Origin: a virus
DNA: 64,000 nucleotides
IMG/VR virus record: IMGVR_UViG_3300043331_001676
Location: 1 to 64,000 of that record
Reading direction: 5' to 3' (one strand)
The translations under genes were made by a program, and so were the position numbers. Under the pieces are notes generated by a model. It worked only from the letters and a program-made list of their open reading frames with translations, had not been told where the DNA came from and ran no database searches. Of this stretch, positions 13,507-29,126 are shown in pieces. Position 1 is the stretch's first letter. Every line of letters starts with the position of its first letter.

Positions 13507-13771
13507 CATTTTTCCAACTCAGGATCATCTTATAAATACAAAACATTGGTGCCACTTCTGCATCTGGCGGGACCAGGACCAATGCCGGGCACAAAAGGCC
13601 GTGATCTCTGATAGCGCTATATCATCTTGCAAGATTACGGGTGGCCTCAGAACTTTTCCTACCGGGTTCCCGCAGGGAGGCGGCATTACAAGCGGTCGCG
13701 CCGAGAACTTGATGGAGATGATGGCGATAATCCATCCTACCCAGACCACCCCATTTGGTGAGGGCAAATGA
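13457..13771 (+). CDS. Small Cys-rich protein
   Basis: 104 residues from a GTG at 13457, without a good ribosome site. WCHFCIWRDQDQC and a later CKITGG provide four Cys that could bind zinc or an Fe-S cluster. The N-terminal boundary is unsure because the coupled ORF at 13417 is in a different frame. Its stop overlaps the ATG of the Mom-like gene. Confidence 0.45.
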   Translation: MEELIRARIGGGLKGTDIFPTQDHLINTKHWCHFCIWRDQDQCRAQKAVISDSAISSCKITGGLRTFPTGFPQGGGITSGRAENLMEMMAIIHPTQTTPFGEGK

Positions 13772-14421
13772 TAACGCTTAAGCTCGGCACTAAACAGGAC
13801 CTCGACTGGGCGCAGGCCGTCGCCCTAAAGTATCACTACCTGCACCAGCGCGTGGACAACCGGGCCAGACCTATGGTCTACCTGGTTACGATAGCCGGGG
13901 TCCGGCTGGGTCTGGTCATGGTCGGCATCCCCCACGCCACCCGCTGCCGGGGTTGGTGGGGCTATCCTGGCCTGCCGACCCAGTGGCAGGTGCTGGACCT
14001 GTGCCGCATCTGGCTCGACCCGGCCATCCAGGCTGGCGGCGAATTTGCCAGGCCCGGTTATGTCCCCGGCTTCGTGGACCGCCACGGCCAGTTTCGCCCG
14101 ACCGTGGCGAGCTGGGCTATCGGCCAGGTGCTGGAGCGGTTACAGCGGGACTGGATCAGCCTGTGGCCGCCGGTCTTTCCTGAGCGGCCTTATCACATTC
14201 GTCTGGTCATCAGTTATCACGACCCGAAGCATCACAGGGGGACCATCTACCGGCTAATGAAAGCCCTGCCGATGTACACCGACAAAAGCAAGCTGCCTAT
14301 CCCTGGACCATCCGGCAAGTTCGGCTGGTGCTGGCGGCTGCCGGAGCCGGCCTGGGAGTGGCCGGAGGTCGAGATCAGGCAGCCGCGCACCATGCGGCTG
14401 GAGTTGGGGGACTATGGCTAG
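13768..14421 (+). CDS. Mom-like GNAT-fold DNA-modification protein
   Basis: 217 residues. The central motif DLCRIWLDP followed by late SYHDPKHHRGTIYR matches the conserved (E/D)LSRLWL..P and GT.Y...N/K elements of phage Mom-family proteins, an acetyltransferase-like fold. In phage Mu, Mom converts adenine in DNA to a carbamoylmethyl-type modified adenine that blocks many restriction enzymes. Here it starts in overlap with the previous stop, with a GAGGG site. No Com-like regulator is evident, although the Cys-rich small protein just upstream could be one by position (Com is a small zinc protein encoded before Mom). Assignment is from motif memory. Confidence 0.7.
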   Translation: MITLKLGTKQDLDWAQAVALKYHYLHQRVDNRARPMVYLVTIAGVRLGLVMVGIPHATRCRGWWGYPGLPTQWQVLDLCRIWLDPAIQAGGEFARPGYVPGFVDRHGQFRPTVASWAIGQVLERLQRDWISLWPPVFPERPYHIRLVISYHDPKHHRGTIYRLMKALPMYTDKSKLPIPGPSGKFGWCWRLPEPAWEWPEVEIRQPRTMRLELGDYG

Positions 14422-14611
14422 AGTGCTCCGGGGCGCGGTCCCGGCCCACGACCAGAAGCTTGAGCCGGAGGCTCGACTATTGATCGCGGTCTTCCGGCAG
14501 GCCCGGATTGATCTATTTTCAGCCTCGGACCAGATCAGGACCATGGCCGAGCGGTTCCTGGCCTCGTATGGCTACGATGTCGAGGAGATCAGGGCTTGCT
14601 GGAAGCGATAA
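14414..14611 (+). CDS. Small hypothetical protein
   Basis: 65 residues, helical, no recognised family. The ATG lies in the last codons of the Mom-like gene and the stop is 35 bases before the DUF5131 start; the palindrome AACGAGCGTT sits in that gap. Confidence 0.6.
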   Translation: MARVLRGAVPAHDQKLEPEARLLIAVFRQARIDLFSASDQIRTMAERFLASYGYDVEEIRACWKR

Positions 14612-14645
14612 ATCAGAACGAGCGTTTCGAGAAAGGACACTGACG

Positions 14646-15644
14646 ATGGGCGAAAATAGCAAGATTGAATGGTGTGACCACTCCTGGAATCCGTGGATTG
14701 GCTGCGTCAAGGTTAGTCCTGGCTGCAAGTTCTGTTATGCCGAGGAGCTAATGACCCGCAAGGGGCGCTGGGCCAACACATGGGGACCGGCACAGACTTC
14801 CGAACGGATTAAAACCAGTGATGACAACTGGCGCAAGCCCTTGCGGTGGAATCGACAGGCCCAAAAAGAGGGACGGCGGTTCAAGGTCTTTTGCGCGTCG
14901 TTGGCCGACGTGTTTGAAGATAATCCCCAAGTTTATGATTGGCGGCTTCAGCTATTTAGCCTTATTAGCGAGACGCCTAACCTGGATTGGCAGATACTAA
15001 CCAAGCGGCCTGAATTTGCCAGGGCGTTTTTTGAGAAGCGCCCACACTTGCTTTGGCCCAATGTTTGGCTTGGTACGAGTGTCGAAAATCAGGAGCAAGC
15101 CGATAAGCGCATACCCGAATTGCTCAGGACCCCGGCTCAGGTTCGTTTCCTGAGTTGTGAGCCGCTTTTGGAGCCGGTACGGTTGGCTGATGCGTGGTTA
15201 TATGATTATGTAACTGATAGGCGAGACGCTTGTTTTATTGATTGGGTCATTGTTGGCGGCGAATCAGGACCGCAGGCGAGGCCGATGCACCCCGAATGGG
15301 CGTGGCAAATCGAGCGGCAATGTGAAGCGGCAGGCGTAGCCTTTTTCTTTAAGCAGCACGGCGAATTTATTAGCAAACCCGAAATTGCCGATTTGACCGA
15401 AGATGGATGGAAGGTCAGGCCAGAATGGTTGCCGATGATTCAAGGTAGCCGGTGGGGTTGTCTTGACATCAACGGAAAGTACAGGCCGGAAACTACAACC
15501 TGGAATGGGCGGCAAAATGATCCACAGGATGATTATGAGGTTACGGTTTATAAGGTCGGCAAACATAACGCTGGTCGCCTGCTCGATGGCCGGACGTGGG
15601 ACGAGTTCCCCGACACCGCCACGCTTGAGCCGGCCACACTTTAA
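14646..15644 (+). CDS. DUF5131 (phage Gp37/Gp68) three-Cys protein
   Basis: 332 residues from the ATG at 14646; upstream extension of the frame lies over the preceding gene. The N-terminus SKIEWCDHSWNPWIGC followed by C-x6-C-x2-C (GCVKVSPGCKFCYAE) is the hallmark of DUF5131 proteins, together with FCASLADVFED, LTKRPE and WLGTSVENQEQAD. The three Cys resemble a radical-SAM type Fe-S site, and the family is often encoded near a partner called TcmP, which I do not see here. Activity is unproven. In this phage it lies between the Mom-like gene and a DNA methyltransferase, which fits a nucleic-acid modification role. Confidence 0.85.
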   Translation: MGENSKIEWCDHSWNPWIGCVKVSPGCKFCYAEELMTRKGRWANTWGPAQTSERIKTSDDNWRKPLRWNRQAQKEGRRFKVFCASLADVFEDNPQVYDWRLQLFSLISETPNLDWQILTKRPEFARAFFEKRPHLLWPNVWLGTSVENQEQADKRIPELLRTPAQVRFLSCEPLLEPVRLADAWLYDYVTDRRDACFIDWVIVGGESGPQARPMHPEWAWQIERQCEAAGVAFFFKQHGEFISKPEIADLTEDGWKVRPEWLPMIQGSRWGCLDINGKYRPETTTWNGRQNDPQDDYEVTVYKVGKHNAGRLLDGRTWDEFPDTATLEPATL

Positions 15645-15661
15645 TCTCTTGAGGGAGGGTT

Positions 15662-15970
15662 ATGAGTATGCGAATCGGAGACAAAGCCACCTACACGGGC
15701 ACGGCCTACCCCTGGGCCACCGGCCGCGAAGTCGAGATCAAGGGGATCATCCGGGATAACCGGACCATCAAGGATAACGTGCTGCTGGACGCTACAGGCG
15801 GCACCCGGGAGAGCGACCACGTGATCTTCTCGCTGCTGGATGCCGATGGCTTCCGGTTTAGCGCGCCGGATGCGCGGCTGGGGGATTTTGAGGTGCAGCC
15901 GGTGATTGCTCAAGCGCCGCTGGGTGCGGCCGTGGAGGCTGCCGAACCGGAATTCCTAACGCTCGTTTGA
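15662..15970 (+). CDS. Hypothetical protein
   Basis: 102 residues with a good GAGGGAGG ribosome site. A beta-rich sequence in the N-terminal part (GDKATYTGTAYPWATGREVEI) is compatible with a small barrel. Not recognised. AACGCTCGTT occurs at its stop codon (15958-15967). Confidence 0.6.
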   Translation: MSMRIGDKATYTGTAYPWATGREVEIKGIIRDNRTIKDNVLLDATGGTRESDHVIFSLLDADGFRFSAPDARLGDFEVQPVIAQAPLGAAVEAAEPEFLTLV

Positions 15971-15973
15971 ACG

Positions 15974-16002
15974 TTGATTTCGGGATTCGAGTGTGATAGA
16001 CT
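15974..16002 (+). promoter_or_regulatory. Promoter with extended -10, upstream of the DNA methyltransferase
   Basis: -35 TTGATT (15974-15979), 17-base spacer, TGTGATAGACT with -10 TAGACT (15997-16002) and TG extension. The same TGTGATAGACT occurs with the same spacing at 30381-30391, which supports both as a phage promoter class. Confidence 0.6.
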
Positions 16003-16018
16003 GAATAAAATAAAATTG

Positions 16019-16135
16019 CCTTGACCCGTCCTGCCGCCAAGCTAAGCCGGGTCAAGGCTGATGACAGGAGTCCGCAGGTAAGGGCAAACTACCGTCTTTT
16101 GCTATTATACCATGCTTTGCCCCCGACCGGGCAAG
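16019..16135 (+). promoter_or_regulatory. Structured leader before the DNA methyltransferase gene
   Basis: A ten-base perfect stem CCTTGACCCG/CGGGTCAAGG (16019-16028 with 16048-16057) is followed by GGGCAAA (16082-16088), TTTGCCC (16116-16122) and GGGCAAG (16129-16135). The middle segment can pair with either neighbour, so two exclusive hairpins are possible about 45 bases before the ATG at 16180. Nothing else lies between 15971 and 16179. No T-run follows, so any control would more likely be on translation. Confidence 0.5.
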
Positions 16136-16179
16136 TTTGCCGCCTCGCCTGTTGATTCCACAAACGGGATCAGCGATCA

Positions 16180-17730
16180 ATGCCAAAATACAAACCTATA
16201 GGTCAGGGCCAGGGTTGGACCGTTATTAAGGCTGATGTGCTAGATTACCTGGTTGGCTCGCTCTGGCTGCGCCAATACTACGGCGAATATTTCCATTTCC
16301 TGTTTGACGATTGGCCCTATAACCTCGATTCTATCACCCGGCGGTTCGGCCCAGCGGGCAGCGCCCCGGCTCAATTTGGCCGGGACGGGGCCTTTGCCCG
16401 GCAGTCACGCGGATTCATGGGGCAAACCTGGGACACTGATTTGGCCTACCAGCCGGAAACCTGGACCACTATCCTACCCCATCTCTACCCCGGCGCGTTT
16501 ACCGCCAGCTTCAGCCATCCCCGAAAGCAGCACCGACTGGCGCTGGCCCAGGAGTTAGCCAGGTTTGTGATAAATCCGGCGCTGTACCAGATCGGCTGGG
16601 TGTATGCAAGTGGCAAGCCGAGCGGGACGCGCATTGACACACAGATTGACCGGCGAGCTGGGGCCGAGCGGGAAGTGGTGGGGCAGGTAAAACGATGGGG
16701 TCACAATGCAGGGGCCGGCTCCGGCAGCTTCTATGCTAATGGATATCAGGCCACCACCGGCAGAGCGAAACTTGACGTTATTACTACCCCCGCCACCGCC
16801 CTGGCCCAAACCTGGGCCGGCCATCAATACGGCTCACCCCTGGCCCCGGAACTGGAACCGATCATTATCGCTCAAGCTCCCTGGCCAGAGAACAGGCTCG
16901 ATACCATCTTGAAAACCGGCGCAGGCGCGGTCAATATCGAGGCGGGGAAAAATGGGATGCCGGAACGGGGATACCCCGGCCACTTTATCCTCACGCATCA
17001 TCCTGGATGTGGCTACCTGGGCGAGAAGCGGGTCAGGAACGGCAGCGGTGACGTGACCGGCCAGGAGCCGAGCAGCCAGGCTTACGGCAAGACATTAAAC
17101 ACTTACGCCGGGAACTTTAAGCCCAAACCCTATCAAGCCAAAGGGGACCAGGACGGCTATATCAGCGTCCCTGATTACGATTGCCACCCGGATTGCCCGG
17201 CCCGGCGGCTCGACGAGCAGGCGGGCGAAAAGAGTTACCACTTCTACCAGGCCGACTGGACGTATGATATTCAGGAGCGCCTGGCCGGGATCAATCCGCT
17301 TTATTACCAGGGCAAGGTCACTGCGCTTGAGCGCAATGCCGGCTGTGGCCAACTGCCGCTTAAGGAGAGGCGGCGAGTCAATCCGGGCGGGCTGGAACGA
17401 GAGAAGCGATTCGCGAGTACCTGGCAGCACAATGATCACCCTACCCTGAAAAGCATCAAGTTGTGCAAGTGGATTGCTGGCCTGTTTCTGCCGCCGGAGC
17501 AGTACCGGCCCAGGCGGGTCCTTGTGCCGACCTGTGGCACGGGCAGCGAAATGATCGGCTGCCTGCTGGCCGGGTGGGATGAGGTAATTGGGGTGGAATT
17601 AAATGCCGGTTACGCAGAGGTGGCCTGCCGGCGCCTGGAGTGGTGGTCCAGGCATCTGGAATGGGGCCTGAATGATGTGGACCGGATTATGGCCAGCGCC
17701 AGGACGGGCGCGGCCCAGGCAATGTTTTAA
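16180..17730 (+). CDS. Beta-class DNA amino-methyltransferase (N6-adenine/N4-cytosine type)
   Basis: 516 residues. The catalytic motif IV appears near the N-terminus as DWPY (residues 44-47, variant of DPPY), and the AdoMet-binding motif I is C-terminal, PTCGTGSEMIG from residue 450 followed by VIGVELN. This order (catalytic motif first) is that of beta-class methyltransferases that methylate the exocyclic amine of A or C in DNA. The long middle part should hold target recognition and has several Cys (CHPDCPARR, C with H) that may bind zinc. It stands alone without a restriction partner, typical of phage protective methylases. The Trp in place of the first Pro of DPPY is unusual. Confidence 0.8.
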   Translation: MPKYKPIGQGQGWTVIKADVLDYLVGSLWLRQYYGEYFHFLFDDWPYNLDSITRRFGPAGSAPAQFGRDGAFARQSRGFMGQTWDTDLAYQPETWTTILPHLYPGAFTASFSHPRKQHRLALAQELARFVINPALYQIGWVYASGKPSGTRIDTQIDRRAGAEREVVGQVKRWGHNAGAGSGSFYANGYQATTGRAKLDVITTPATALAQTWAGHQYGSPLAPELEPIIIAQAPWPENRLDTILKTGAGAVNIEAGKNGMPERGYPGHFILTHHPGCGYLGEKRVRNGSGDVTGQEPSSQAYGKTLNTYAGNFKPKPYQAKGDQDGYISVPDYDCHPDCPARRLDEQAGEKSYHFYQADWTYDIQERLAGINPLYYQGKVTALERNAGCGQLPLKERRRVNPGGLEREKRFASTWQHNDHPTLKSIKLCKWIAGLFLPPEQYRPRRVLVPTCGTGSEMIGCLLAGWDEVIGVELNAGYAEVACRRLEWWSRHLEWGLNDVDRIMASARTGAAQAMF

Positions 17731-17796
17731 GCGGGTCCTTCGTAAATTCTAAACGAGCGTTTCAAAGTAAGGCGGCGGAGAAAAACAAGGAGTGCA

Positions 17797-18993
17797 ATGA
17801 ATCACGACACATCTATCGAGGCCAGATTTGAAGGACATGAAGTCGTCGAAGCTGGCACAGCTACCATCCCTCACCTGCTTCTGTGGCATTATCGTGACCT
17901 GGGATTGGTGGATGCTCAATTCACCCTGCTCACTCTGATCATTGCCAGGAAGTGGACCAGGGAAGCCCCCTATCCATCCCTGGCCCGGCTGCCCATGACC
18001 GCCAATTTGGACAGCCGGCGGCGCTATGTCCGGGACCTGCGCCAGAAGGGCCTCATTTTTACAAGCCGGCTTTACTGGACCAATAAGGACATAGAGGGAA
18101 ATCCGAGCGCCAGGCCGGGGCGCGTCAGGTCCAATATATGGTATCTGGGCAGCCTTTTTCATAATCTGGTCAGGATTCACCGCTGGCTCCACGAAGGCAA
18201 TCCCGCAGCATCATTTTGCGTTGAAATCCCCCTGACCACGATCAAGATGTTTCTCAAGGGCGATTTTCACGATACACCGGAATATATCATCAACATTATC
18301 AATCAGCAGACTCAGGGTGGGGTCGTTCTCAAGACAGTTACTCTACCGTGCGAAAAACGCACAGTAGGAAAATCTACTATGCGTTTTTCTAGTAGTAGTT
18401 TTTCTAGTAGTAGAAAAACGCATAGTCATGAAGAAGAATCAGAGTCTAAGAAGAATCAAAAGAAAAAGAAGAATAAGGTAAAGGGCGCTGACGCGCCGCC
18501 TCTTCATGGGAGGAACAACCTGCCGGCAGAGGTGGCTATCAAAACCAGGGTTAAGGAAGTCTTTTGTCTAAAGACAGGCTTAAGCATGCCCCGACGCAAA
18601 ACGGATCAAAACTTCTGGTGGTCCAACTTTGGCGAGATCGCCAGTATTGCCGAACAAAACATCGAGCGGGCCGAATGGCTGGTCGAGGAGGTCATTACTT
18701 ACATGACAGATGAGCACCTGACTATTTCCGGCCCGCAAAGCATTGTAAATCTGTGCCGGTCGTTAGCCGCCGGCCAGGTATTAGCAAAAGGAGGTACTAA
18801 GAAAGATGGACAAACTAGACGCAGTAATATCAAAGGTTTACGAGAAAACGGCAGCGATAACCCCATCAAGCCAATCTTCGACCCCGACACCGGGGAAGAT
18901 TACTACGTTGACGCCCGATCCGGGCAGCGGGTCCATCCTGACGGCTGCCCCTGCTACGGGTGCCATCCAGAGCACCGACCCGACCCAGCCTGA
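17797..18993 (+). CDS. Replication initiator with N-terminal winged helix (DnaD/O-like)
   Basis: 398 residues. The N-terminal 90 residues (VDAQFTLLTLIIARKW, then SLARLPMTANLDSRRRYVRDLR) look like the winged helix of phage replication initiators that choose primosomal genes. A Ser/Lys-rich low-complexity linker (about 185-225) is encoded by an iteron-like repeat block at 18352-18482, followed by a helical domain (about 240-330) and a Cys-containing tail (GCPCYGCHPEH). Like lambda O, it probably binds the origin inside its own gene and recruits the helicase loader encoded immediately downstream. The loader gene starts inside this one, 188 bases before its stop. Confidence 0.75.
   Translation: MNHDTSIEARFEGHEVVEAGTATIPHLLLWHYRDLGLVDAQFTLLTLIIARKWTREAPYPSLARLPMTANLDSRRRYVRDLRQKGLIFTSRLYWTNKDIEGNPSARPGRVRSNIWYLGSLFHNLVRIHRWLHEGNPAASFCVEIPLTTIKMFLKGDFHDTPEYIINIINQQTQGGVVLKTVTLPCEKRTVGKSTMRFSSSSFSSSRKTHSHEEESESKKNQKKKKNKVKGADAPPLHGRNNLPAEVAIKTRVKEVFCLKTGLSMPRRKTDQNFWWSNFGEIASIAEQNIERAEWLVEEVITYMTDEHLTISGPQSIVNLCRSLAAGQVLAKGGTKKDGQTRRSNIKGLRENGSDNPIKPIFDPDTGEDYYVDARSGQRVHPDGCPCYGCHPEHRPDPA
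18352..18482 (+). other. Candidate replication origin inside the initiator gene
   Basis: Three GAAAAACGCA-type arms alternate in orientation: GAAAAACGCACAGTAG (18352-18367), its near-perfect complement CTACTATGCGTTTTTC (18374-18389) and GAAAAACGCATAG (18413-18425). Two perfect tandem copies of TTTTTCTAGTAGTAG lie at 18384-18398 and 18399-18413. An A-rich stretch follows (18426-18482), suitable for unwinding. The arrangement, in the low-complexity linker of an initiator gene, is that of lambdoid origins. Confidence 0.7.
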
Positions 18994-19852
18994 TCCCTTC
19001 GATGAACCCTTCGACCGCGCCCTTCGACAGGCTCAGGACAGCGCTCAGGAAGTTCTCAGGGCGCAGCCCTGCCCGGCCTGCGGCGGGACCGGCTTTTTCC
19101 GCCTCGATGCCCCGGTCGGTGCGCCCGGCTTTGGCCGCCTGGAAGCCTGCGATCACCCCAACCATACCCCAGTGAGGTTGGCCCGCCTGTCCGGCCTATC
19201 TAGCCTGCTTCCGGCTGAGGCAAAAAAGCGGCTTAAGGACATAAGGTCCAATAGCAAAAATGGCGAGGTCCTGGAGGCGGCCAGGGAGATGATTCGCAAT
19301 CCGCGCGGCTGGTGGCTGTACCTGTACGGCAAGGCTGGCAACGCCAAGAGCGATGTCCTTCTGGCCGTCCACAACGAGATCAATGCCGCAGGCCGGGGTC
19401 CGGCGCTCTACGTTGAATTCACCCGGCTGCTGAACTGGATCACCGAAGCCCACAACGAGAAGGATTATCGCAGCAAATTCCTGGCCGGCGGGGGCGGGAA
19501 AGAGGGGGGGATGCCCGACAGTCTCGGCTACCAGGCCCGCCTGGACCGGATTACGGCCCTCCCGGTCATCCTCATTGACGAATTCGACAAGGCTCGGATG
19601 ACCGACTTCCGGGAAGAGTTCCTGTTCGAGTTCCTGAACACCCGCTGGCGGCAGGCCGTGGCCGGGGAGACGGCCACCCTGTTTGCCGGCCAGACCGCGC
19701 CCATTGACTGGCCCGACCCGATCCGCAGCCGGATTGAAGACGGGCGTTTCAAAGTCGTCCACAACCTGGCCGGCGATGCCCGACGGGCGATGAAAAGAAC
19801 CCTTCGACCCTTCGACTTCGCTCAGGAAGTTCAAGCTCAGGATGGGAGGTGA
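18806..19852 (+). CDS. DnaC-like helicase loader (AAA+ ATPase)
   Basis: 348 residues, started at the ATG at 18806 behind a strong AGGAGGT. A zinc knuckle CPACGG...CDHPNH lies at about residues 89-115. The P-loop is GKAGNAKS (175-182), with Ala in place of the usual Gly before the Lys, and Walker B is VILIDEFDK (about 255). This is the layout of DnaC/DnaI-type loaders that place the replicative helicase at the origin. Two dispersed CCTTCGACAGGCTCAGGA-type repeats are in frame, at residues about 64-90 (FDRALRQAQDSAQ) and at the extreme C-terminus (FDFAQEVQAQDG). Confidence 0.75.
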   Translation: MDKLDAVISKVYEKTAAITPSSQSSTPTPGKITTLTPDPGSGSILTAAPATGAIQSTDPTQPDPFDEPFDRALRQAQDSAQEVLRAQPCPACGGTGFFRLDAPVGAPGFGRLEACDHPNHTPVRLARLSGLSSLLPAEAKKRLKDIRSNSKNGEVLEAAREMIRNPRGWWLYLYGKAGNAKSDVLLAVHNEINAAGRGPALYVEFTRLLNWITEAHNEKDYRSKFLAGGGGKEGGMPDSLGYQARLDRITALPVILIDEFDKARMTDFREEFLFEFLNTRWRQAVAGETATLFAGQTAPIDWPDPIRSRIEDGRFKVVHNLAGDARRAMKRTLRPFDFAQEVQAQDGR

Positions 19853-19855
19853 ACG

Positions 19856-20266: not shown

Positions 20267-20483
20267 ACGCCGCCGGCGCAGGCGCGAGTGCGAGGGCAAG
20301 CAGCGCTTCGAGAGTCCCGAAGCGGCAGGCCGGATGATCGGCTGGCTGGCCCGCATTGGCCGGCTCAGGCCCGGCACCCACGCCTACCCCTGCGATTTCG
20401 GCAACCACTGGCACATTGGCCGGGGCAGGAGAGGGCTGCGCCGGCAGCGGATCAAGAGCTGGCAGTGGAATATGGGAGTATGA
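20256..20483 (+). CDS. Small Arg-rich protein
   Basis: 75 residues from the ATG at 20256 (MSSKRRRRRRECEGKQRF...). Very basic at both ends, with a middle YPCDFGNHWHIG motif common in small phage proteins that begin with a Lys/Arg run followed by a helix and C..H residues. Probably nucleic-acid binding. One base separates its stop from the next ATG. Confidence 0.65.
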   Translation: MSSKRRRRRRECEGKQRFESPEAAGRMIGWLARIGRLRPGTHAYPCDFGNHWHIGRGRRGLRRQRIKSWQWNMGV

Positions 20484-20484
20484 G

Positions 20485-21786
20485 ATGACTTTAGTAAAAC
20501 AAACCAACCGCCGTATCTCTTTTTTTGACGACCAGCGCTTAACTCAGAGCGAGGCTATCGAGCTGACCGCGCAGGCGCTTATCTACTACATCGGCCAGTA
20601 CCCGGACGTGGTTGTGTCCTATTCCGGCGGCAAAGACAGCACGTCTTTGCTGACCCTGCTCCTGGTTCTGATCGAAGCCGGGCGGGTGCCCCGGCCCAGG
20701 TCGCTGCGGGTGCTCCTGGCTAATACGCGGGTCGAACTGCCCCTGCTGCACCTGGCGGCCCTCCAGATCATGCAGATCGTGCGAGAAAAGGGCTACCTGG
20801 CACAGGTGGTCGAGCCTCCCCTGGATGACAGGTTTTTTGTGCGCATGTTCGGCTTTGGCTATCCACCCCCACACAATGGCTTTCGCTGGTGCACCGATCT
20901 CTTAAAACTCAAGCCGATGCTGACCGCGCTATTAGCGGCGCGCCAGGCTGCCGGCCAGAAATTTCTGGCCTTGACCGGGATGCGTATTGGGGAATCAGCC
21001 ATGCGCGATCAGCGGATTGTCCTGGCCTGTGGCAGCAAGGATGGCGAGTGCGGCCAGGGAGCTATCCTGGCCCAGGCCCAGGAGAAGGCCAGGAAGGGTG
21101 GGGATAAATTTGGCCTGTACGAAAGCTCCCCGATCTCTTACCTTTTTACCCACACCCCGGCCAGTGAACCCGCCGATGTGCTTTCGCCCTTGCTTCACTG
21201 GCGTGTCTGCCATGTGGCCGACTGGCTGATGCTGGAAGCGCCTTCCTACGGCTTCCCCACCCATCGTGTGCTGGAAGCTTACGGGGCGGGCGTGGGCGAT
21301 AGTGAACCGCTCGAGGCCCGCACCGGCTGCATCGCCTGCCCGGTCGCGGGTAACGGCGATCCGGTCCTGGTCAAGACCACCAGGCTGCCGGGCTGGGAGT
21401 ACCTGCGGCCCCTGCTGCGCCTGCGCGACCTGTACAACGAACTATCCAGGCCGAAGTACCGTCTCAAAAAGTCCGGCGAGCGCAACAAGGACGGCAAGTT
21501 ATCCTCCCGGCCCAACCGGGGCGGACCACTTTTATTTGAGTCACGCCTGTATGGGATGGAGCAGGTATTGCGGATCCAGGCCGAGGTGAATGAAGGCGCG
21601 CGAGCTGCGGGCCGGCCCGAGCTGGTCTTGATCAGCGACGAGGAAAAGACCCGCATCCTGGAACTTATCGAGGCTGAAACCTGGCCTCAGAAATGGAGCG
21701 GGGATGATCTCCGGGGGGATGCGCTGGTAGACCTGGTGGTAGGCGAAGGATTGACCCAGCCGGTTTTGGCCGGGCTGAAAATATAA
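20485..21786 (+). CDS. PP-loop ATP pyrophosphatase, PAPS reductase/DndC-like
   Basis: 433 residues from the ATG at 20485. The PP-loop SGGKDS is at residues 47-52, followed by RWCTD at 134-138 and a CIAC pair at 282-285. PP-loop plus these Cys positions is the pattern of the PAPS-reductase/DndC branch, where ATP activates a substrate for sulfur or other transfer; DndC acts in DNA phosphorothioation. No dndB, D or E gene is visible, so phosphorothioation is not established and a different base or tRNA modification is possible. It lies between replication genes and the ParB-like gene. Confidence 0.75.
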   Translation: MTLVKQTNRRISFFDDQRLTQSEAIELTAQALIYYIGQYPDVVVSYSGGKDSTSLLTLLLVLIEAGRVPRPRSLRVLLANTRVELPLLHLAALQIMQIVREKGYLAQVVEPPLDDRFFVRMFGFGYPPPHNGFRWCTDLLKLKPMLTALLAARQAAGQKFLALTGMRIGESAMRDQRIVLACGSKDGECGQGAILAQAQEKARKGGDKFGLYESSPISYLFTHTPASEPADVLSPLLHWRVCHVADWLMLEAPSYGFPTHRVLEAYGAGVGDSEPLEARTGCIACPVAGNGDPVLVKTTRLPGWEYLRPLLRLRDLYNELSRPKYRLKKSGERNKDGKLSSRPNRGGPLLFESRLYGMEQVLRIQAEVNEGARAAGRPELVLISDEEKTRILELIEAETWPQKWSGDDLRGDALVDLVVGEGLTQPVLAGLKI

Positions 21787-21818: not shown

Positions 21819-22958
21819 ATGACCAATCAAATTCAAACGACGCCAATCACAATACCGCTGGCCAAATTAAAAACAGGCCGGTACCAGCAGCGCAAGGCGT
21901 TTGATGTAGCCGAGATGGGCGGCCTGGCCCGGACAATAAAAGCCGGCAAGCTAATGTTTCCACCTATGGTTATGGCAGTCAACGGCCATTATGAGCTGAT
22001 TGCCGGCGACCGGCGTCGGCGCGCGCTGTATGCCCTGGCCCTGGAATCAGACGGCATGGGGATGGACCAGGCTTTAACCCTGGTTTGCAGTCCGACCGTA
22101 GACCAACTGCCGGACCGCTTCCCGGTGCTGCACAAGATAACAGTGCAGGTCAATCTGAGCCAGGAAACCGACCCTGCCACCCTGCAAACCCTGGCAGCAA
22201 TCGAGAACCTGCAACGGGTTGATTTGACCCCACTGGAGAAAGCAGTGGGGTTTCAAAGTCTGCTCGATGACGGCCTGACCCTGGCCGAGGTTGTCGAGCG
22301 TACCGGCGAAAAAGCCTCTTCCATCAAGCGCTATCTGGCCCTGCTCTCGCTGCCGGAGCCTGTTCAGGAACATTTCGACAAGCGGCGTATCCCCCTTGAT
22401 GTCCTGAAAGAACTGAGCGGGCTGCCCAAAGAAGTACAAATCCAGGTAGCCGAAAAGATGGCAGGCCGCAAAAGTAGTGAAATCAAGGCGCTGGTCAAGA
22501 TGGTTCAGAAGCGGCTGTCTAACTCGCCTCGTGCAACCCCCGGTAACGGATTATCAACGCTGCCGGCGTCGGAAACGGAAGGGGTATCGCTCGGTCTGGA
22601 TAGTACAGAAGTGGAAGCCAATGCGATAGAAACCCGGCCCGCCTCGATTCGGGAGCAGTTGGCCGGGGCGAAGGAGATAATCTCCAAACTCACCATGCAG
22701 CTTCACCTGGATAGCCGGTTACTTAGAATGTGCGCGGAAGAGTTAATTGCTTGCACTCCCGACTCGCGCGTAGCGCTGATAGCCAACGCCAGAGCTGAGC
22801 AAATCGAGCGGTCAATCAAGCTGCGCAAGCGGCAGCCGCCGGTGGCCCAGGTGCAGCGTGGTCTAAAGATCGAGCGCTTCATGGAGAAGCGGCAGCGTGG
22901 CATCAGGCTTCGTCCTGAAGCTCAGCCCGAAGGGAGGCGAGATGCCCAACCTGGTTGA
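21819..22958 (+). CDS. ParB-like DNA-binding protein
   Basis: 379 residues. ParB/Srx motifs occur in order: YQQRKAFD, a box II variant YELIAGDRRRRAL (about residues 54-66) and IENLQRVDLTPLEKA (about 127-141), followed by the helix-turn-helix region VVERTGEKASSIKRYLALL. The C-terminal third is different and ends in a repeat-derived peptide (LRPEAQPEGRR). No ParA partner is in the window. Phage ParB-like proteins may act in plasmid-like maintenance, as CTPase DNA clamps, or as transcription regulators. GGAGGTG precedes the start. Confidence 0.8.
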   Translation: MTNQIQTTPITIPLAKLKTGRYQQRKAFDVAEMGGLARTIKAGKLMFPPMVMAVNGHYELIAGDRRRRALYALALESDGMGMDQALTLVCSPTVDQLPDRFPVLHKITVQVNLSQETDPATLQTLAAIENLQRVDLTPLEKAVGFQSLLDDGLTLAEVVERTGEKASSIKRYLALLSLPEPVQEHFDKRRIPLDVLKELSGLPKEVQIQVAEKMAGRKSSEIKALVKMVQKRLSNSPRATPGNGLSTLPASETEGVSLGLDSTEVEANAIETRPASIREQLAGAKEIISKLTMQLHLDSRLLRMCAEELIACTPDSRVALIANARAEQIERSIKLRKRQPPVAQVQRGLKIERFMEKRQRGIRLRPEAQPEGRRDAQPG

Positions 22959-24303
22959 TGAAGCAGTCCGCCAACTTGATACAGCCCTGGTCTGGCTCGA
23001 AGTACCGCAAGGCAACCGTCGCTATGGGTGGCATCGGCAGGAAGATGCGGTTCTGCGCCGGTGGTGGGGGAAAATTCCCCGGCCCGAACTGGCCCGGCGC
23101 GTTACCGGCGCGCTGCGTCAGGCAACCGGAGACAATCAAGCCGAACGGAGCATCAATGCCTGCATGAACCGGGCCGCTGAATTGGCCCTTGTCGCCTATG
23201 ACGGTGAGCCGGGGGAAACTTATCTCAAGCGGCTTTGCGAGGAGTCGAATGCCCCCTATGAAATGGCGCACAAGTCGGTCAGAGACGGCGAACTGGCCGC
23301 GACGAAAAAAGGCAAGAAACTGTACGTCACCGACCTGGCCTGGGCGCTGTGGCTGACAAGCTACCGTGAACGGCTGCTCACTCAAGGCGAGGTTCTGAAC
23401 GCGCTTGAAGGCGAAGTGGTCCTGACCAAGCGTGAGGCAATGAAATTTACCTGCCTGTCTGAAACTCATCTCGCCCGGTATTTACAGACCGGGGTTATCC
23501 AGGCGTGGCTGCTGCCGGGTATCAAAACCGGCAGGCCGGGAGAGTGGCTGGTGAGTAAAGCTTCAGCCGAAGCTTTTGTTCAGGCGCGTTCAGAAGGCCG
23601 GCTGCGGGCGCTGCTAGATCAAAACCCGAAGTATGTAGCCTTGAGAAACCAATTGACCGGCCAAATTGGCGGGCTGCGCCGGGCCGGCCGGTTAAACGAT
23701 GCCGACCCTCTGACAGAGCCGCAAAGCCTTTACCATCCCGGCTGCTTCACCATCAAGCAGGTGGCCTCTCACCTGGACCTATCTACCCAGGCCGTGCACG
23801 AGGCAATTGCCACTGGCCGGGTCAAAGCAAAAATCATCGTTAAAGGCGGCCGGCCACGCTACGCGATCACGCCGGAGGAGGCCCGGCGCTACGCCGGGCA
23901 GGTAAAGAGCCAGTCTGATACCGCTATCCGGCGCGACACCTGGTATCTGCGCCAGATTAAAGAGGCGAGACTGCTTACGGTACGCGACCTGGCCGAGCGC
24001 TGGCATAGATCGGAAGCGACGGTTCTTTTATGGGCCAAAAAAGCGGGTCTGCCGCGCCGCCGCTGGGGCCGGTACTGGGTCTTTGAACCGGAAGCTCTTG
24101 CTTCATTTGAAGCCACTAATTTCTTGACCCTGAGCGACCTGGCCCAGCGGTGGGGTAAATCTCCCGCTACGGCCGGGTTGTGGACCCGGCAGGCCGGATT
24201 ACCCAGACGCCGGTGGGGCCGGGGGTGGGTATTTGAGCTTGACGTTATCACCTCGTTTGAAACCAGGAAGGGAATTCAGGGTGAAGCAGTTAGATTTTCT
24301 TGA
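22942..24303 (+). CDS. Multi-helix-turn-helix DNA-binding protein with duplicated C-terminal domain
   Basis: 453 residues from the ATG at 22942 behind GGGAGG, inside the end of the ParB-like gene. At least four helix-turn-helix-like units are present: LTKREAMKFTCLSETHLARY, FTIKQVASHLDLSTQAVHEA, LTVRDLAERWHRSEATVLLW and LTLSDLAQRWGKSPATAGLW. The last two are followed by nearly identical KAGLPRRRWGR..VFE blocks, so the C-terminal unit is a tandem duplication of a MerR/excisionase-like wing. Coupled to ParB, it may be the companion that positions it or a late-gene regulator. Family not named. Confidence 0.7.
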   Translation: MPNLVDEAVRQLDTALVWLEVPQGNRRYGWHRQEDAVLRRWWGKIPRPELARRVTGALRQATGDNQAERSINACMNRAAELALVAYDGEPGETYLKRLCEESNAPYEMAHKSVRDGELAATKKGKKLYVTDLAWALWLTSYRERLLTQGEVLNALEGEVVLTKREAMKFTCLSETHLARYLQTGVIQAWLLPGIKTGRPGEWLVSKASAEAFVQARSEGRLRALLDQNPKYVALRNQLTGQIGGLRRAGRLNDADPLTEPQSLYHPGCFTIKQVASHLDLSTQAVHEAIATGRVKAKIIVKGGRPRYAITPEEARRYAGQVKSQSDTAIRRDTWYLRQIKEARLLTVRDLAERWHRSEATVLLWAKKAGLPRRRWGRYWVFEPEALASFEATNFLTLSDLAQRWGKSPATAGLWTRQAGLPRRRWGRGWVFELDVITSFETRKGIQGEAVRFS

Positions 24304-24574
24304 GATCGTGCAAAAGACCTCGTTCGACTTCAAACACCACCCTGATCCCGAAATGGTTTTTGGTGATTTAAAAGTGGGCGACTGGTTTCAGATAATTACC
24401 TGGGTTAGCGGGGAATGGCACACGATTTCTGAGGTTTTTGTTCGGGTGGATCAATCTGATGTTTCATTTCCTAACAGCATCGCTCTTGAACGCGACAGGC
24501 GGTATCCTTACCGGCTCGCCACAACCTCATTTTTTAAAGATGTGCCGGTCAGGCTGGTAATAAAATCTGCATAA
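24281..24574 (+). CDS. Hypothetical protein
   Basis: 97 residues from a GTG at 24281 after AATTCAGG, overlapping the previous gene by 23 bases. Beta-rich (GDWFQIITWVSGEWHTISEVFV) with alternating hydrophobics, possibly a small barrel. Not recognised. Confidence 0.55.
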   Translation: MKQLDFLEIVQKTSFDFKHHPDPEMVFGDLKVGDWFQIITWVSGEWHTISEVFVRVDQSDVSFPNSIALERDRRYPYRLATTSFFKDVPVRLVIKSA

Positions 24575-24604
24575 TTCAAGTAAAAAGAGACGAAGGATCC
24601 CAAT

Positions 24605-24865
24605 ATGTCCCCTCTCCGAATCCAGCAAAAAATAGTCCACCTCAGCCGGCTGCTCAGAGACCTCTCGATGCGCTATACCATCGCCTGCCTGGGGGATGAG
24701 CACGAGGAGGCCCGCCGGCTGGGGGCCGAGGCTCACGAGATCCGTTTTGAGATTTTGCGGCTCAAGCGCGCCTACCAGGATGAAGTGTCGCTCAGGGCAG
24801 AGCAGGCGGCGGCGGTGGCCGAAGCCTGCCGGATCATGGGAGCCGTGGCAGATACCCGGTCATAA
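24605..24865 (+). CDS. Small helical protein
   Basis: 86 residues, two amphipathic helices with Arg/Glu-rich surfaces; coiled-coil-like; not recognised. GAAGGA precedes the start. Lies between the HTH gene and the Cas4-like nuclease. Confidence 0.6.
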   Translation: MSPLRIQQKIVHLSRLLRDLSMRYTIACLGDEHEEARRLGAEAHEIRFEILRLKRAYQDEVSLRAEQAAAVAEACRIMGAVADTRS

Positions 24866-24892
24866 TCTTTATCCAAAGCACAAGGAGGCTTT

Positions 24893-25504
24893 ATGAACGC
24901 AATCACTCTCAAGCAAAGCCTGGTCGAGGCATTACGCGATAAATCCGGCCTGGAGCAGCACCGGCCCTACCTGGGGATGAGCAGTATCTACTACTGCCCG
25001 CGCAAGCTCTATTTTGATTTTGTCGAGGGCCGGCAGTCATTTACGGATAGGGATCACTATTACTGCTGGCTGGGCTATATGTACGAGGACAGGCTCAAGC
25101 AGCTTCTGGGCGAACAGGTCCAGTATAGGCCCATCGAGATCGTGGCCGAGTGGGATGCGCGCTTCCGGGGACACGCCGACTACCAGTTCGACAGCGCCCT
25201 GGTCGAGATCAAGTCTACCAACTGGGACAAGTATCAGAAGATCGTCGCCGACCGCAGGCCCGACCCGGCTCACGTGGCCCAGGTCCAGATGTATCTCCGC
25301 CACGGCGGCTGGCCGGCCTGCTTCATGATCTATATCGCGCGGGATGTGCCGCCGCGCGAGTGGCAGGCATTCCCGCTCTGGATTTTTGAGATCGGGCCGG
25401 ACCCGGCCCTGGCTGACACGCTGGACCAGAAGGCCCGTCGTATCCTGATGGCCGTAGATAAAGGGCTTCCGCCGAACTGCATTTGTAACTGGTGCCGGCG
25501 GTAG
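24893..25504 (+). CDS. Cas4-like 4Fe-4S PD-(D/E)XK nuclease
   Basis: 203 residues. CPRKLYF (Cys35) near the N-terminus and CICNWC near residues 195-200 provide four Cys for an iron-sulfur cluster. The nuclease core GHADYQF...ALVEIKST gives the Asp and Glu-x-Lys, and QVQMYLRHGG is the QxxxY-type helix of the RecB/Cas4 group. Such enzymes are 5'-3' or end-processing exonucleases; in phages they often replace lambda Exo beside an annealing protein, so a partnership with the Sak4-like ATPase (4052-5194) is plausible. No CRISPR array or other cas gene is present. AAGGAGG ribosome site. Confidence 0.85.
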   Translation: MNAITLKQSLVEALRDKSGLEQHRPYLGMSSIYYCPRKLYFDFVEGRQSFTDRDHYYCWLGYMYEDRLKQLLGEQVQYRPIEIVAEWDARFRGHADYQFDSALVEIKSTNWDKYQKIVADRRPDPAHVAQVQMYLRHGGWPACFMIYIARDVPPREWQAFPLWIFEIGPDPALADTLDQKARRILMAVDKGLPPNCICNWCRR

Positions 25505-25555
25505 GGTGGAATTCCAAACGCGCGTTTTGATTTCTTGTAGCCATAGGATTATCCG

Positions 25556-26209
25556 ATGAAGAACCCACAGATAGACACCTTACTGCAAGCAGCCAGAGCC
25601 ACTAACATTCCAGCCGCCTGGTCTGGCGGCTGGTTTGTCGAGAAAACCCAACTCAAATTGCCGCAGCCTGTCTCGTACAGAGGGGGGATAAGGCTCCTGT
25701 CACCCGGAATCTACACGGCTCTTTTCCGAATGACCGACTCGACCATGATGAATTGGCCGCCGGGCGAGGTCGTAATGGAAGATACGCCCTTCGAGTTAAA
25801 AACCCATCTTGAGTTTATGCTCAAAGCAAGGGGCAGCATCCTTGTGACCGGCCTCGGCCTGGGCTGCGTCACGCGCGGCCTGCTGGCAAATCCAGCCGTG
25901 AACCATGTCACCTGCATCGAGAAATCAGCCGACGTTCTAAAGCTGGTGCAGCCTTATATGCCCCAGACCAACCGGCTGTCCATCATCCACGCCGATGCCC
26001 TGGAGTGGACAACGACGACAACTCAAACCTTTGACTACGCCTGGCACGACATATGGTCGAATCGAGATGCCGGCGAGCCTCATCTTGATGAGCTGCACAC
26101 TCATCTAATTTTCAACTGCCGCGACAAAGTGAGGAACCAGGGCGCGTGGAAATACGCACGAGAAGCCAAACGGTTCCTGGCAGCTAAACAGATGAAGCTG
26201 ATGGCTTAA
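25556..26209 (+). CDS. Class I SAM-dependent methyltransferase (spermidine-synthase-like fold)
   Basis: 217 residues. Motif I is SILVTGLGLGCVTRG (about residues 98-108), followed by an acidic strand end VTCIEKS and the DALEW and FDYAWHDIW motifs, the latter being where a catalytic or substrate-binding Asp sits. The closest fold class is spermidine-synthase-like methyltransferases common on phages. The substrate cannot be told. AACGCGCGTT (25517-25526) lies in the gap before the gene. Confidence 0.7.
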   Translation: MKNPQIDTLLQAARATNIPAAWSGGWFVEKTQLKLPQPVSYRGGIRLLSPGIYTALFRMTDSTMMNWPPGEVVMEDTPFELKTHLEFMLKARGSILVTGLGLGCVTRGLLANPAVNHVTCIEKSADVLKLVQPYMPQTNRLSIIHADALEWTTTTTQTFDYAWHDIWSNRDAGEPHLDELHTHLIFNCRDKVRNQGAWKYAREAKRFLAAKQMKLMA

Positions 26210-26222
26210 TATCAAAATCCGG

Positions 26223-26471
26223 GCCGGTGAGGCAGCAAGCCGCCGGCAACACCCAGGCTGCAAAACAAAGACCCCCACACCAGGAATAACCCGGTGTAGG
26301 GGACGGTCACAGAACGACCGGAGCGGGCAGAGCGGGGAGTATGGGAAGGGTCGGGAGAGTACGCTCGCCTTCACGGTCGAGAGTACGGCACTAACGAGAG
26401 TGCCGGGAGGGTGATTGTGACTGATCTCATCCTACAACCAATTGGTTTGCTGTTCAACCCCAATTATTGGG
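26223..26471 (+). ncRNA. Candidate structured RNA between two genes
   Basis: The 330-base gap from 26210 holds no credible gene but five hairpins: GCCGG..GGC-N5-GCC..CCGGC (26223-26247), CCCCACACC with GGTGTAGGGG (about 26273-26302), CGGTC-ACAGAAC-GACCG (26304-26320), GGCACT-AACGAG-AGTGCC (26387-26404) and CCCCAA-TTA-TTGGGG (26457-26471). GAGAGTACG occurs twice (near 26355 and 26380). Dense local pairing without coding potential suggests a noncoding RNA or a long leader for the genes from 26538. Confidence 0.5.
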
Positions 26472-26537
26472 GGTACTAAGGATAAGTTCGCAGGCCGGTC
26501 TCCCAGAATTATAAACGAGTGTTAGGAGATTTAAGTG

Positions 26538-26918
26538 ATGCCATTTTCTCAAGAGGACCTTATCAGGGGCTTCGGCGACAAACTGTTTGGCCTGCTCACA
26601 ATGACCCAGGCCGACCTGGAAGCGATCCAGGCGCGGGTAGAGGCGGCGACACCGGGGCCGTGGGAAGGGCGACCAAGGCTTTTGCATAATGGTCGGGAGA
26701 TAAGCTGCGAGATCGTGGGGAATATACATCCCGGCTGGGCTACCCCGGTCTGTCAGCTTTCACCCGGCTTTGCCTGGTACGAAAATGACAAAGATTTTTT
26801 GACCAGTGCCCGCACCGACATCCCCGCCCTCCTGGCCGAGATCGAGGCCCTGCGCCGGGCCTGCTACCATTACGCTACCCAGATGGGGCGATGGGGTGAG
26901 AAGGGCAAGAAAAAATGA
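26538..26918 (+). CDS. Phage protein of the EAxxATPGPW type
   Basis: 126 residues from the ATG at 26538 (GTG at 26535 also possible) behind GGAG. The pattern EAATPGPWE...DKDFLTSARTDIPALLAEIEALR is seen in many phage and prophage proteins of unknown function (Ea22-like end). Overlaps the TGT-like gene by 4 bases, so the two are co-translated. Confidence 0.7.
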   Translation: MPFSQEDLIRGFGDKLFGLLTMTQADLEAIQARVEAATPGPWEGRPRLLHNGREISCEIVGNIHPGWATPVCQLSPGFAWYENDKDFLTSARTDIPALLAEIEALRRACYHYATQMGRWGEKGKKK

Positions 26919-28033
26919 CCGGCTACTTCGGCGTCATCGGCAACCGCGACTACATCAAGATCAAGGGTGAGCGCCGGCCCTTCTGGGAGTTCCTGGACCG
27001 GCAGCCGGCCGGCTGGCTGTGCTCGCTGGCCTACAGTAGAACTGATGTGCCGGCTGCGCCGATGATCTGGGACTGCGGAGCCTGGAGCTACAAGGCCCAG
27101 GAATCGCCCCGGCTGGGCAAAACAGAAGTCACCCCGGCCTGGGCTGCCGGCCAGTATACCCAACTGGCCCGCCCCGGCGATTTCGCCGTCGCCCCCGACC
27201 ATATGCTTATCCCCTTCGCGGGGGTGGACATCGAGGCTCGCCGGCACTTCAACCGCGCCTCGGCCCTGACCTTCATCGAACTCTGCCCGGCCCACCTGCG
27301 CCCGATGGCCGCCGTCCACGGCCTGAGTTTGGCTGAACGAATCGAGAACGCGCGTTTTCTTATGGATGCCGGCTACCACACGCTGGCCCTGGGCGGCCTC
27401 GCGGGGCAGGCGAATAAACGACAGATGATTTTTGAAGTGGTCGGCGCGATCCGCCGTGAATTCCCCGGCGTCTGGCTGCATGTCCTGGGCCTGTCGTCGC
27501 CGGGCTATGCGGCTGAGTGGCAGCGAATAGGGGTGGACAGTTTCGACGGGGCCAGCCACTTCAAGCAAGCCTTCACTGCCGGCAAGTTCTTTATGGAGCA
27601 GGACGGCAAGCTCGCCGGCTACCAGGCGGCCCGGCCTGGCCAGCCTGTCACGGCCCCGGCTTGCGACTGCCTGGCCTGCCTGCGGCTGCGGGCTGAAGGC
27701 GTGGACACCCGGAGCTACGGCTCCAACGAGCATAATATGGGCCGGGCCGCGCACAATCTGAACCAGTTGATGAGGGCTATTGACATCCAGGCCGTGCGCT
27801 CCCCCAGTTTCCCGCTAGATTGCCCGACCGGGGCAGCCGGCCGGCGAGATAACCGCTTGCCGCGCCACTGCGCGGGCTGCCGGTCCTTTCAGGAGAAGGG
27901 CGGCCTACGATGTGTGTACCCTGATTTTGCCAACGATCATCTTGAATTCATCCAGGCTCACCTGGCTCGGACTGGATCGCTGAAAGAGATCGAGTGGACC
28001 CTGCGTGGTGATAACCGGCCCGGGGTCAGGTAA
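26915..28033 (+). CDS. TGT-superfamily transglycosylase, DpdA-like (7-deazaguanine insertion)
   Basis: 372 residues. Three signatures of tRNA-guanine transglycosylase are visible: GGLAG at 160-164 (substrate loop), DSFD at 208-211 corresponding to the region of the nucleophilic Asp, and a zinc site C250-x-C252-x2-C255-x24-H280. A second Cys/His cluster (PRHCAGC...C) lies near 310-330. Length and an APD motif near 93-95 fit the DpdA branch, which swaps guanine in DNA for a 7-deazaguanine such as preQ0. No queuosine-pathway synthesis gene (queC, D, E, folE) is in the window, so the base would come from the host. DNA rather than tRNA as target is inferred from phage context. Confidence 0.75.
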   Translation: MTGYFGVIGNRDYIKIKGERRPFWEFLDRQPAGWLCSLAYSRTDVPAAPMIWDCGAWSYKAQESPRLGKTEVTPAWAAGQYTQLARPGDFAVAPDHMLIPFAGVDIEARRHFNRASALTFIELCPAHLRPMAAVHGLSLAERIENARFLMDAGYHTLALGGLAGQANKRQMIFEVVGAIRREFPGVWLHVLGLSSPGYAAEWQRIGVDSFDGASHFKQAFTAGKFFMEQDGKLAGYQAARPGQPVTAPACDCLACLRLRAEGVDTRSYGSNEHNMGRAAHNLNQLMRAIDIQAVRSPSFPLDCPTGAAGRRDNRLPRHCAGCRSFQEKGGLRCVYPDFANDHLEFIQAHLARTGSLKEIEWTLRGDNRPGVR

Positions 28034-28047
28034 TTGGAGTTAAAGTT

Positions 28048-28404
28048 ATGAGCACCCTCGACCAATACCGCTTAGGCTACGCGCTCAAAAGCAAGCGGTC
28101 CGGCCTGGACCTGAACCTGCGCGAGGTGGCCGCTGCCACCGGCATCAGCACTTCGACCCTGTCGCGGGTCGAGAACGGCAAGGGCCACCTGCTGCAAATA
28201 GATACCTTTCTGGCCCTGTGCGACTGGCTGGGGGCGGACCCGGCCAGCTTCATCGTGCCCGGTACGGAAGCAAACAGCGCACCCGAAATGGGCGACCTGG
28301 AGGAGATTGAGGTCCGGCTGCGGGCCTGCCTGGAAGCGCCGGCGCTGTGTAAGGCTATCGCCGAAGTCATCCGGCTGATCAGGCTTGAGCAAGCAAATTC
28401 ATAA
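28048..28404 (+). CDS. XRE-family regulator
   Basis: 118 residues. Helix-turn-helix at about residues 22-45 (LREVAAATGISTSTLSRVE), followed by a short helical tail. It lies between the TGT-like gene and its neighbour and may control this group. It is a different subgroup from the immunity regulators at 7949-9071. Confidence 0.8.
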   Translation: MSTLDQYRLGYALKSKRSGLDLNLREVAAATGISTSTLSRVENGKGHLLQIDTFLALCDWLGADPASFIVPGTEANSAPEMGDLEEIEVRLRACLEAPALCKAIAEVIRLIRLEQANS

Positions 28405-28421
28405 GAACGGAGGATCATCGA

Positions 28422-29126
28422 ATGTTACCTGTACTGATCGGCTGCCGGGGCAATGACCCAGATGCGCCCAAACTGCTGAAAGCTGAGGGCTGGCGTTATG
28501 GTTTTCGGAGTGATGCAACGCCTTACGGCTGGCCTTACTTCGTAGACATCAAATGGTGTGATTATATTTGGTCTAGCCATTTGGCAGTCATTCGTGAATG
28601 GCGGCCCGTAATAGCGATGGTAGCCGATTATGAATCTCTGACTCGGCAATCTTTTATGTTAGCCCAGATTCGTGACATCTCTTCTCTGGGTGTTCGGCCT
28701 ATGGTTTGCCCCAAGTTTTCAGGCGCAGTAGCCGACATTCCAAAAGGTTGCATTGTGGCTGTTTCTGTACCAACCGATTATGCCGGCTTCTTACCTGAAC
28801 CAAGCGAGGTCAAGGGGCGAGAGTTGCATCTTCTCGGCGGCCATCCTGACCAATTTAGGGTGCTGATTCAGCGATATAATCAAAGCAAAGTAGTAAGTAT
28901 TGATTGTTCGGCTATTTTTCAAAAGGCGCAATTTGGGGCTTTTTGGAGCGCAAAACGAAACACATGGAGACATGTGAAGCATCGCTTTTCTACTCACGCA
29001 CTTACCAGAATGAGTGCAAGGCAAGTCACTACATATCTGGGTCAACCCCCTAAGTTATTCCTAAAACAGAGGAAGCGGCTGTACCAGGTTGGCTTCGAGC
29101 TGAAGCCTTCATTGTTTCAAATTTAA
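28422..29126 (+). CDS. Uncharacterised phage protein next to TGT-like gene (DUF6610-like?)
   Basis: 234 residues, strong GGAGG site. Repeated beta-strand/helix units with LHLLGGHPDQFRVLIQRY and VVSIDCSAI suggest a TIM-barrel-like protein. From memory this resembles an uncharacterised family (possibly DUF6610) found beside TGT-like genes; I cannot confirm the name. Base composition is clearly AT-richer than neighbours, a sign of separate transfer. A role as partner of the transglycosylase is an inference from proximity. Confidence 0.5.
   Translation: MLPVLIGCRGNDPDAPKLLKAEGWRYGFRSDATPYGWPYFVDIKWCDYIWSSHLAVIREWRPVIAMVADYESLTRQSFMLAQIRDISSLGVRPMVCPKFSGAVADIPKGCIVAVSVPTDYAGFLPEPSEVKGRELHLLGGHPDQFRVLIQRYNQSKVVSIDCSAIFQKAQFGAFWSAKRNTWRHVKHRFSTHALTRMSARQVTTYLGQPPKLFLKQRKRLYQVGFELKPSLFQI

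Follow-up and report, generated by a model that had tools for sequence, protein, structure and literature searches.

A predicted 7-deazaguanine DNA-modification module pairing a DpdA-type transglycosylase with a DUF6610 protein in a temperate phage

The modification of phage DNA with 7-deazaguanines is an established phenomenon, and DNA modified in this way in other phages has been shown to resist restriction (PMC6884629). DpdA, a DNA-guanine transglycosylase of the TGT superfamily, is represented by a bacterial enzyme (PDB 7ui4) and by proteins of phages 9g, CAjan, and Rosebush; DpdA systems co-occur with preQ0 genes or with DUF6884 (DpdC), a partner acting on DNA that carries the modification (PMC11888242), and singleton DpdA phages, without preQ0 genes of their own, are also known (PMC6884629). 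In the halovirus HVTV-1, about 30% dPreQ1 has been measured in the DNA, no DpdA was found in the virus, and a host enzyme was proposed (Hutinet et al. 2019, PMC6884629). Here we describe a locus in the virus record IMGVR_UViG_3300043331_001676, in which a DpdA-type gene is followed closely by a gene of the Pfam family DUF6610. The window analyzed is bases 1-64000 of this 79,023-base IMG/VR record.

From sequence comparison and structure modeling, we consider that the core of this locus is probably a 7-deazaguanine DNA-modification module, made up of adjacent DpdA-type and DUF6610 enzymes that are both predicted members of the TGT superfamily. The phage differs from the closest known DpdA systems in that no DUF6884 and no preQ0 genes were recognized in it, and in the pairing of its DpdA with DUF6610. 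An initial annotation of this DNA had listed six modification-type genes within 15 kb, from which it proposed a compound hypermodification, possibly a new chemistry combining PP-loop and TGT steps; the DUF6610 gene, at the very end of its interval (28422-29126), was missing from that list.

The DpdA-type gene and its relatives

The two genes at the center of this report are:

26915-28033, + strand: DpdA-type transglycosylase (TGT superfamily), assigned by Pfam, NCBIfam, PDB profile match, and conserved residues
28422-29126, + strand: DUF6610 protein, a predicted second, divergent TGT-superfamily enzyme, assigned by Pfam PF20314, model, and conserved residues

The product of the first gene scores above the cut-off of the Pfam TGT model (27.1 versus 26.3 bits) and matches the NCBIfam DpdA model at E = 1.4e-20. 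In a PDB search with a profile built from the window protein plus ten relatives, the best match was the DNA-guanine transglycosylase 7ui4 (E = 3.4e-23), with tRNA TGTs at about 0.002. Residues D53, D95, D211, C250, C252, C255, and H280 are invariant in all 12 sequences compared; D53 and D211 are predicted catalytic aspartates, D95 is predicted to recognize the base, and the three cysteines with H280 are the predicted zinc ligands. The window clade thus shares with known DpdA proteins the TGT core, the catalytic aspartates, and the zinc site, and the sequence evidence is strong that this product belongs with DpdA. The TGT-like enzyme of the initial annotation is therefore confirmed, with DpdA as its nearest kin.

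Relatives were sought in IMG/VR records, which are possibly fragments, and in other collections, by pattern-based scans that reach near relatives and miss distant ones. DUF6884 is fused to the DpdA C terminus in L004 and L018 (by Pfam) and in L005, L007, and L031 (by BLAST), and is the next, overlapping gene in L009 and L019. QueD is encoded downstream of DpdA in L004 and L005, and a QueE-FolE-QueC-QueD run follows it in L020, the QueD and QueC assignments being confirmed by profile. Because its relatives adjoin these genes, the window DpdA clade can be tied to 7-deazaguanine DNA modification. No match to the window DpdA was found at E 1e-5 among 50,697 phage records, and a scan of the genome collection with the DpdA alignment retrieved one contig of a metagenome-assembled genome. 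A contig of this kind, L031, carries its DpdA-DUF6884 fusion at 446-1783 and a second TGT-family gene 8.5 kb away (10259-11248). In the window protein, the C-terminal tail, where relatives have DUF6884, holds a cysteine-rich stretch (CPTG...CAGC...RCVYP; window 27815-28030).

The DUF6610 gene and its neighborhoods

The 234-residue product of 28422-29126 matches PF20314 at E = 4.4e-26 (92.2 bits versus a cut-off of 27). Across 17 of 17 diverse DUF6610 sequences, D42, D69, D161, H136, L138, G139, and G140 are invariant (an H-x-L-G-G motif). Their order matches that of D53, D95, H189-x-L-G, and D211 in DpdA, and the nucleophile motif SxD is similar to the SVDS and SFDG of DpdA proteins, the positions and spacing of the TGT-like aspartates having been read from alignments rather than from superposition. 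An AlphaFold2 model of the window protein forms a triosephosphate isomerase (TIM) barrel, with a mean predicted local distance difference test (pLDDT) score of 75 and 93 residues at 90 or above. Profile alignment of DUF6610 with DpdA by hhalign gave a local match centered on the nucleophile motif (P = 2.3e-4, score 38.9, probability 25-50%), and 99 of 100 column-shuffled controls scored no higher than 18.9. A DpdA-family profile also retrieved, at E = 0.003, the DUF6610 protein of G001 (IMG/VR 3300037504_000682, 99 kb), a phage that shares head and tail genes with the window phage (G000). Taken together, these comparisons make homology of DUF6610 to the TGT superfamily likely, at a level we judge short of proof.

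Three further genes complete the cluster:

26535-26918, + strand: unknown protein of 127 residues, overlapping the DpdA start by 4 nucleotides
28048-28404, + strand: helix-turn-helix (XRE-like) gene between DpdA and DUF6610, assigned by sequence and comparison with G001
29135-29854, + strand: unknown protein of 239 residues, 8 nucleotides downstream of DUF6610

The 127-residue protein has no Pfam match, and profile searches with the 239-residue protein returned no significant family. From 26535 to 29854 the genes are tightly packed, separated by no more than 17 nucleotides or overlapping by 4. The helix-turn-helix gene is absent between the two genes in G001, whose DpdA and DUF6610 (59% and 67% identical to those of the window) overlap by 4 nucleotides. 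DUF6884 (PF21818) has no match in either phage, and in this clade DUF6610 holds the slot that DUF6884 has in other DpdA relatives. The end of the G001 DUF6610 gene is itself overlapped by a DUF5131 gene, giving a single overlapping DpdA-DUF6610-DUF5131 run (L030:8973-11520); DUF5131, which the window phage also encodes (14508-15644), may share a pathway with the pair.

Among isolated phages, DUF6610 matches at E 1e-5 are haloviruses; scans of IMG/VR returned G001 and haloviruses, and a genome-collection scan with the DUF6610 alignment found no relatives. In HVTV-1 and HCTV-1 (gp69 and gp64), the gene immediately follows folE in a queC, queD, queE, folE run, with queF upstream of this run in HVTV-1, whose set is dedicated to 7-deazaguanine DNA. 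These halovirus proteins have the same invariant aspartates as the window protein, which differs in being 25% identical, in belonging to a bacteriophage, in lacking a preQ1 operon, and in standing beside DpdA. Two other, unannotated HVTV-1 proteins considered as alternative transglycosylases, gp83 and gp66, were ruled out as not TGT-like. An archaeal-virus-specific DpdA4 was reportedly named by Cui et al. in 2023 in NAR, and the HVTV-1/HCTV-1 DUF6610 protein may be this DpdA4.

A search that started from HVTV-1 gp69 brought up mycobacteriophage Knocker, in which gp1 is a DUF6610 protein (Pfam E = 1.6e-31). Its gene order is DUF6610, QueF, DpdA, an unknown gene, QueC, QueD, QueE, and FolE, and Funsized has the same set minus the unknown gene. 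DpdA and DUF6610 thus recur as a pair within one operon, as in the window; these mycobacteriophages differ in that their DUF6610 follows a ParB-like N-terminal part within one fused protein, the full QueF, QueC, QueD, QueE, and FolE set is present, and DpdA is of another subfamily. DUF6610 accordingly accompanies QueF, and with it preQ1, in two unrelated virus groups, one represented by HVTV-1 and the other by Knocker and Funsized.

Tandem transglycosylase genes, as predicted for the window phage, are also found in Microbacterium phage Megan, where, in contrast to the window, both are canonical DpdA-like and lie in a preQ0 operon; they precede QueC (L071:670-2543) and the aspartate motifs are intact in both. 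On haloarchaeal plasmids (L038, L062, L064, L065, and L066), DUF6610 genes lie a few genes from genes for ArdC-like single-stranded-DNA-binding proteins, a setting that fits an anti-restriction role. A Natronosalvus halobius plasmid (L037:1245-8205) carries DUF6610, DUF6884, and a cytosine methyltransferase gene inside 7 kb.

Profiles for QueC, QueD, QueF, and the preQ0 transporter YhhQ have no match in the window phage, BLAST searches of it with phage QueE and FolE queries were negative, and an Rfam search of the window returned no families, the preQ1 riboswitch included. A 54-residue QueC-like BLAST match at 60030-60194 was dismissed as chance, as it falls in a different reading frame of a tail gene, lacks the PP-loop, and scores 33 bits. 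Since genes for preQ0 synthesis were not found in the phage, the likely substrate is supplied from outside, the phage probably drawing on preQ0 or preQ1 that its host makes for queuosine.

Other modification-type genes in the region

The phage is tailed, with terminase, portal, major head, and tape-measure genes, and is temperate, as judged from its large serine integrase gene. No tRNA genes were found in the window. An NT5C-type 5'-deoxynucleotidase gene lies at 5495-6076 on the - strand, with a possible use in reshaping the deoxynucleoside triphosphate pool. Upstream of the pair, and including the integrase, the following genes were assigned:

9425-11032, + strand: large serine integrase, the basis for a temperate lifestyle
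13768-14421, + strand: Mom-like protein, a weak assignment (Pfam, PHROG)
14508-15644, + strand: DUF5131 protein (phage Gp37/Gp68-type, cysteine-rich, radical-S-adenosylmethionine-like), likely start ATG 14646
16180-17730, + strand: beta-class phage DNA methyltransferase, with a C-terminal HPT.K motif and then an S-adenosylmethionine (SAM) motif
20356-21786, + strand: PP-loop (SGGKDS) phage protein like 3'-phosphoadenosine-5'-phosphosulfate (PAPS) reductase and DndC, likely start ATG 20485
21819-22958, + strand: ParB-type protein, whose gene immediately follows that for the PP-loop protein, by profile match
25556-26209, + strand: class I SAM methyltransferase (phrog_15480), by fold class and PHROG

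All six genes listed by the initial annotation are open frames near the places given for them, and their assignments vary in strength. DUF5131 is strongly supported (Pfam E = 3.9e-87), and the beta-class methyltransferase is a good identification, since 403 phage records hold relatives, of which many bear the annotation DNA methylase. The Mom-like label is weak: the Pfam Mom match (E = 0.02, 15 bits) falls below the cut-off of 27.1, a PHROG Mom-like match reaches E = 1.2e-4, and the predicted structure is unusable (pLDDT 44); a 59% identical relative in phage record G010 shares the motif S-Y-H-D-P..H.G.IYR. The product of 25556-26209 matches phrog_15480 at E = 1.9e-29 and has the class I methyltransferase fold of a phage family, though nothing in these matches points to DNA as its target.

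The PP-loop protein, described earlier as DndC-like, falls with strong support in phrog_12882 (E = 7.7e-108), a family of PAPS-reductase-like phage proteins. It shares SGGKDS with the DndC of Dnd phosphorothioation systems, and, unlike DndC itself, it falls far under the NCBIfam DndC cut-off (85.9 versus 290.4 bits), making the two only distant kin. A role as substitute for QueC was rejected, there being no Pfam QueC match. In three phages (Dobby and phiC725A of Pseudomonas, RR1-A of Rhizobium) the family adjoins genes for C5-cytosine methyltransferases, and no transglycosylase is annotated in the stretches read from these three. The G001 homologue (47% identity) is separated by about 42 kb from its DpdA-DUF6610 pair and lies near a C5 methyltransferase gene (L052:12858-17364). 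This proximity (L059, L060, L061, and G001) suggests a cytosine-linked role for the PP-loop family.

BLAST of G001 found no homologues of Mom or of either methyltransferase. In G010, the PP-loop homologue adjoins the Mom homologue and DpdA was not found, and in G003 a DpdA gene is followed by a Mom-like stretch. We take the Mom-like, methyltransferase, PP-loop, and DUF5131 genes to be most plausibly independent genes of anti-restriction or DNA metabolism gathered in one region. The proposal of DNA hypermodification holds as a good prediction for the DpdA-type and DUF6610 genes, and several modification-type genes do stand stacked here; Mom, the two methyltransferases, and the others do not recur as one conserved set.

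A proposed role and its alternatives

If the two enzymes act as predicted, DpdA and DUF6610 would each, after replication, flip out guanine at preferred sites in phage DNA and form a covalent link through the nucleophile aspartate (D211 in DpdA and D161 in DUF6610), as in TGT. Guanine would be released, a 7-deazaguanine from the host queuosine pathway would be accepted in its place, and the modified phage DNA would escape host restriction enzymes. For the division of labor we offer a guess: since DUF6610 accompanies QueF in two unrelated viral lineages, it might prefer preQ1 or another sequence context, the DpdA-type enzyme inserting preQ0. More tentatively still, the pair could form one two-part transglycosylase, or two enzymes placing preQ0 and preQ1 at different contexts, in a phage fed wholly by host queuosine precursors and perhaps adding adenine modification by the Mom-like protein.

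The DpdA-type product scores below the NCBIfam DpdA equivalog cut-off (73.5 versus 200 bits); we call it DpdA-type rather than an equivalog, because that model appears to be built on the DpdA of bacterial dpd islands. Several observations weigh against a module of two transglycosylases. In a PDB fold search with the DUF6610 model, TGT appears only at ranks 15-16, with generic TIM barrels higher. A reversed-profile control of the DUF6610-DpdA alignment reached 28.6 versus 38.9, and 1 of the 100 shuffles scored 131 over 16 columns, which looks like an alignment artefact. The TGT zinc site C-x-C-x2-C-H is absent from the DUF6610 alignment, as it is from phage DpdA1 proteins. The recurring pair rests on two independent lineages, because G000 and G001 are related, and HRTV-5 has DUF6610 in a stretch that, as far as it was read, shows no annotated preQ0 genes, so that not every DUF6610 gene goes with 7-deazaguanine.

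It is also conceivable, if rather doubtful, that DpdA alone inserts the base and that DUF6610 is a tailoring or accessory enzyme in place of DpdC, acting on the inserted base or aiding DNA binding by DpdA. The exchange of DUF6884 for DUF6610 in the slot right after DpdA, and the normal DpdA alongside DUF6610 in Knocker, fit such a role, but HVTV-1 combines DUF6610, QueF, and dPreQ1 with no recognized DpdA, and there DUF6610 must perform the insertion unless a host DpdA does so, as proposed in 2019; the invariance of its three TGT-like aspartates likewise speaks against an accessory role. We regard as unlikely that tRNA or a protein, instead of phage DNA, is the target of the TGT-like genes, as in a boost to queuosine or a conjugation like that of Cap10 in the cyclic-oligonucleotide-based antiphage signaling system (CBASS). 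Cap10 is a TGT-family enzyme of protein modification (PMC11996544), proof that the family can be redirected, and the sub-threshold DpdA score leaves room for this; against it, the nearest solved relative of the window DpdA is a DNA-guanine transglycosylase and not a tRNA TGT, and its kin are fused to DUF6884.

The joint PP-loop and TGT chemistry put forward initially is the least probable of these readings and finds little room. G001 does retain the PP-loop, DpdA, and DUF6610 genes while lacking homologues of Mom and both methyltransferases, but the PP-loop protein is not QueC, its relatives keep company with C5 methyltransferases in phages with no transglycosylase annotated in the parts read, its gene is remote from DpdA in G001, and in G010 it sits beside Mom with no DpdA detected. 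Such mixing and matching of modules, as opposed to a fixed pathway, makes a shared chemistry unlikely.

The reading that we favor, a 7-deazaguanine module built on DpdA and DUF6610, bears on a family that Pfam lists without a function, although viruses of archaea and of bacteria alike have it in their 7-deazaguanine operons. If DUF6610 is a DNA transglycosylase, it would explain base insertion in viruses like HVTV-1, in which DpdA went unrecognized in 2019, and the phage described here would pair two divergent base-exchange enzymes within one genome.

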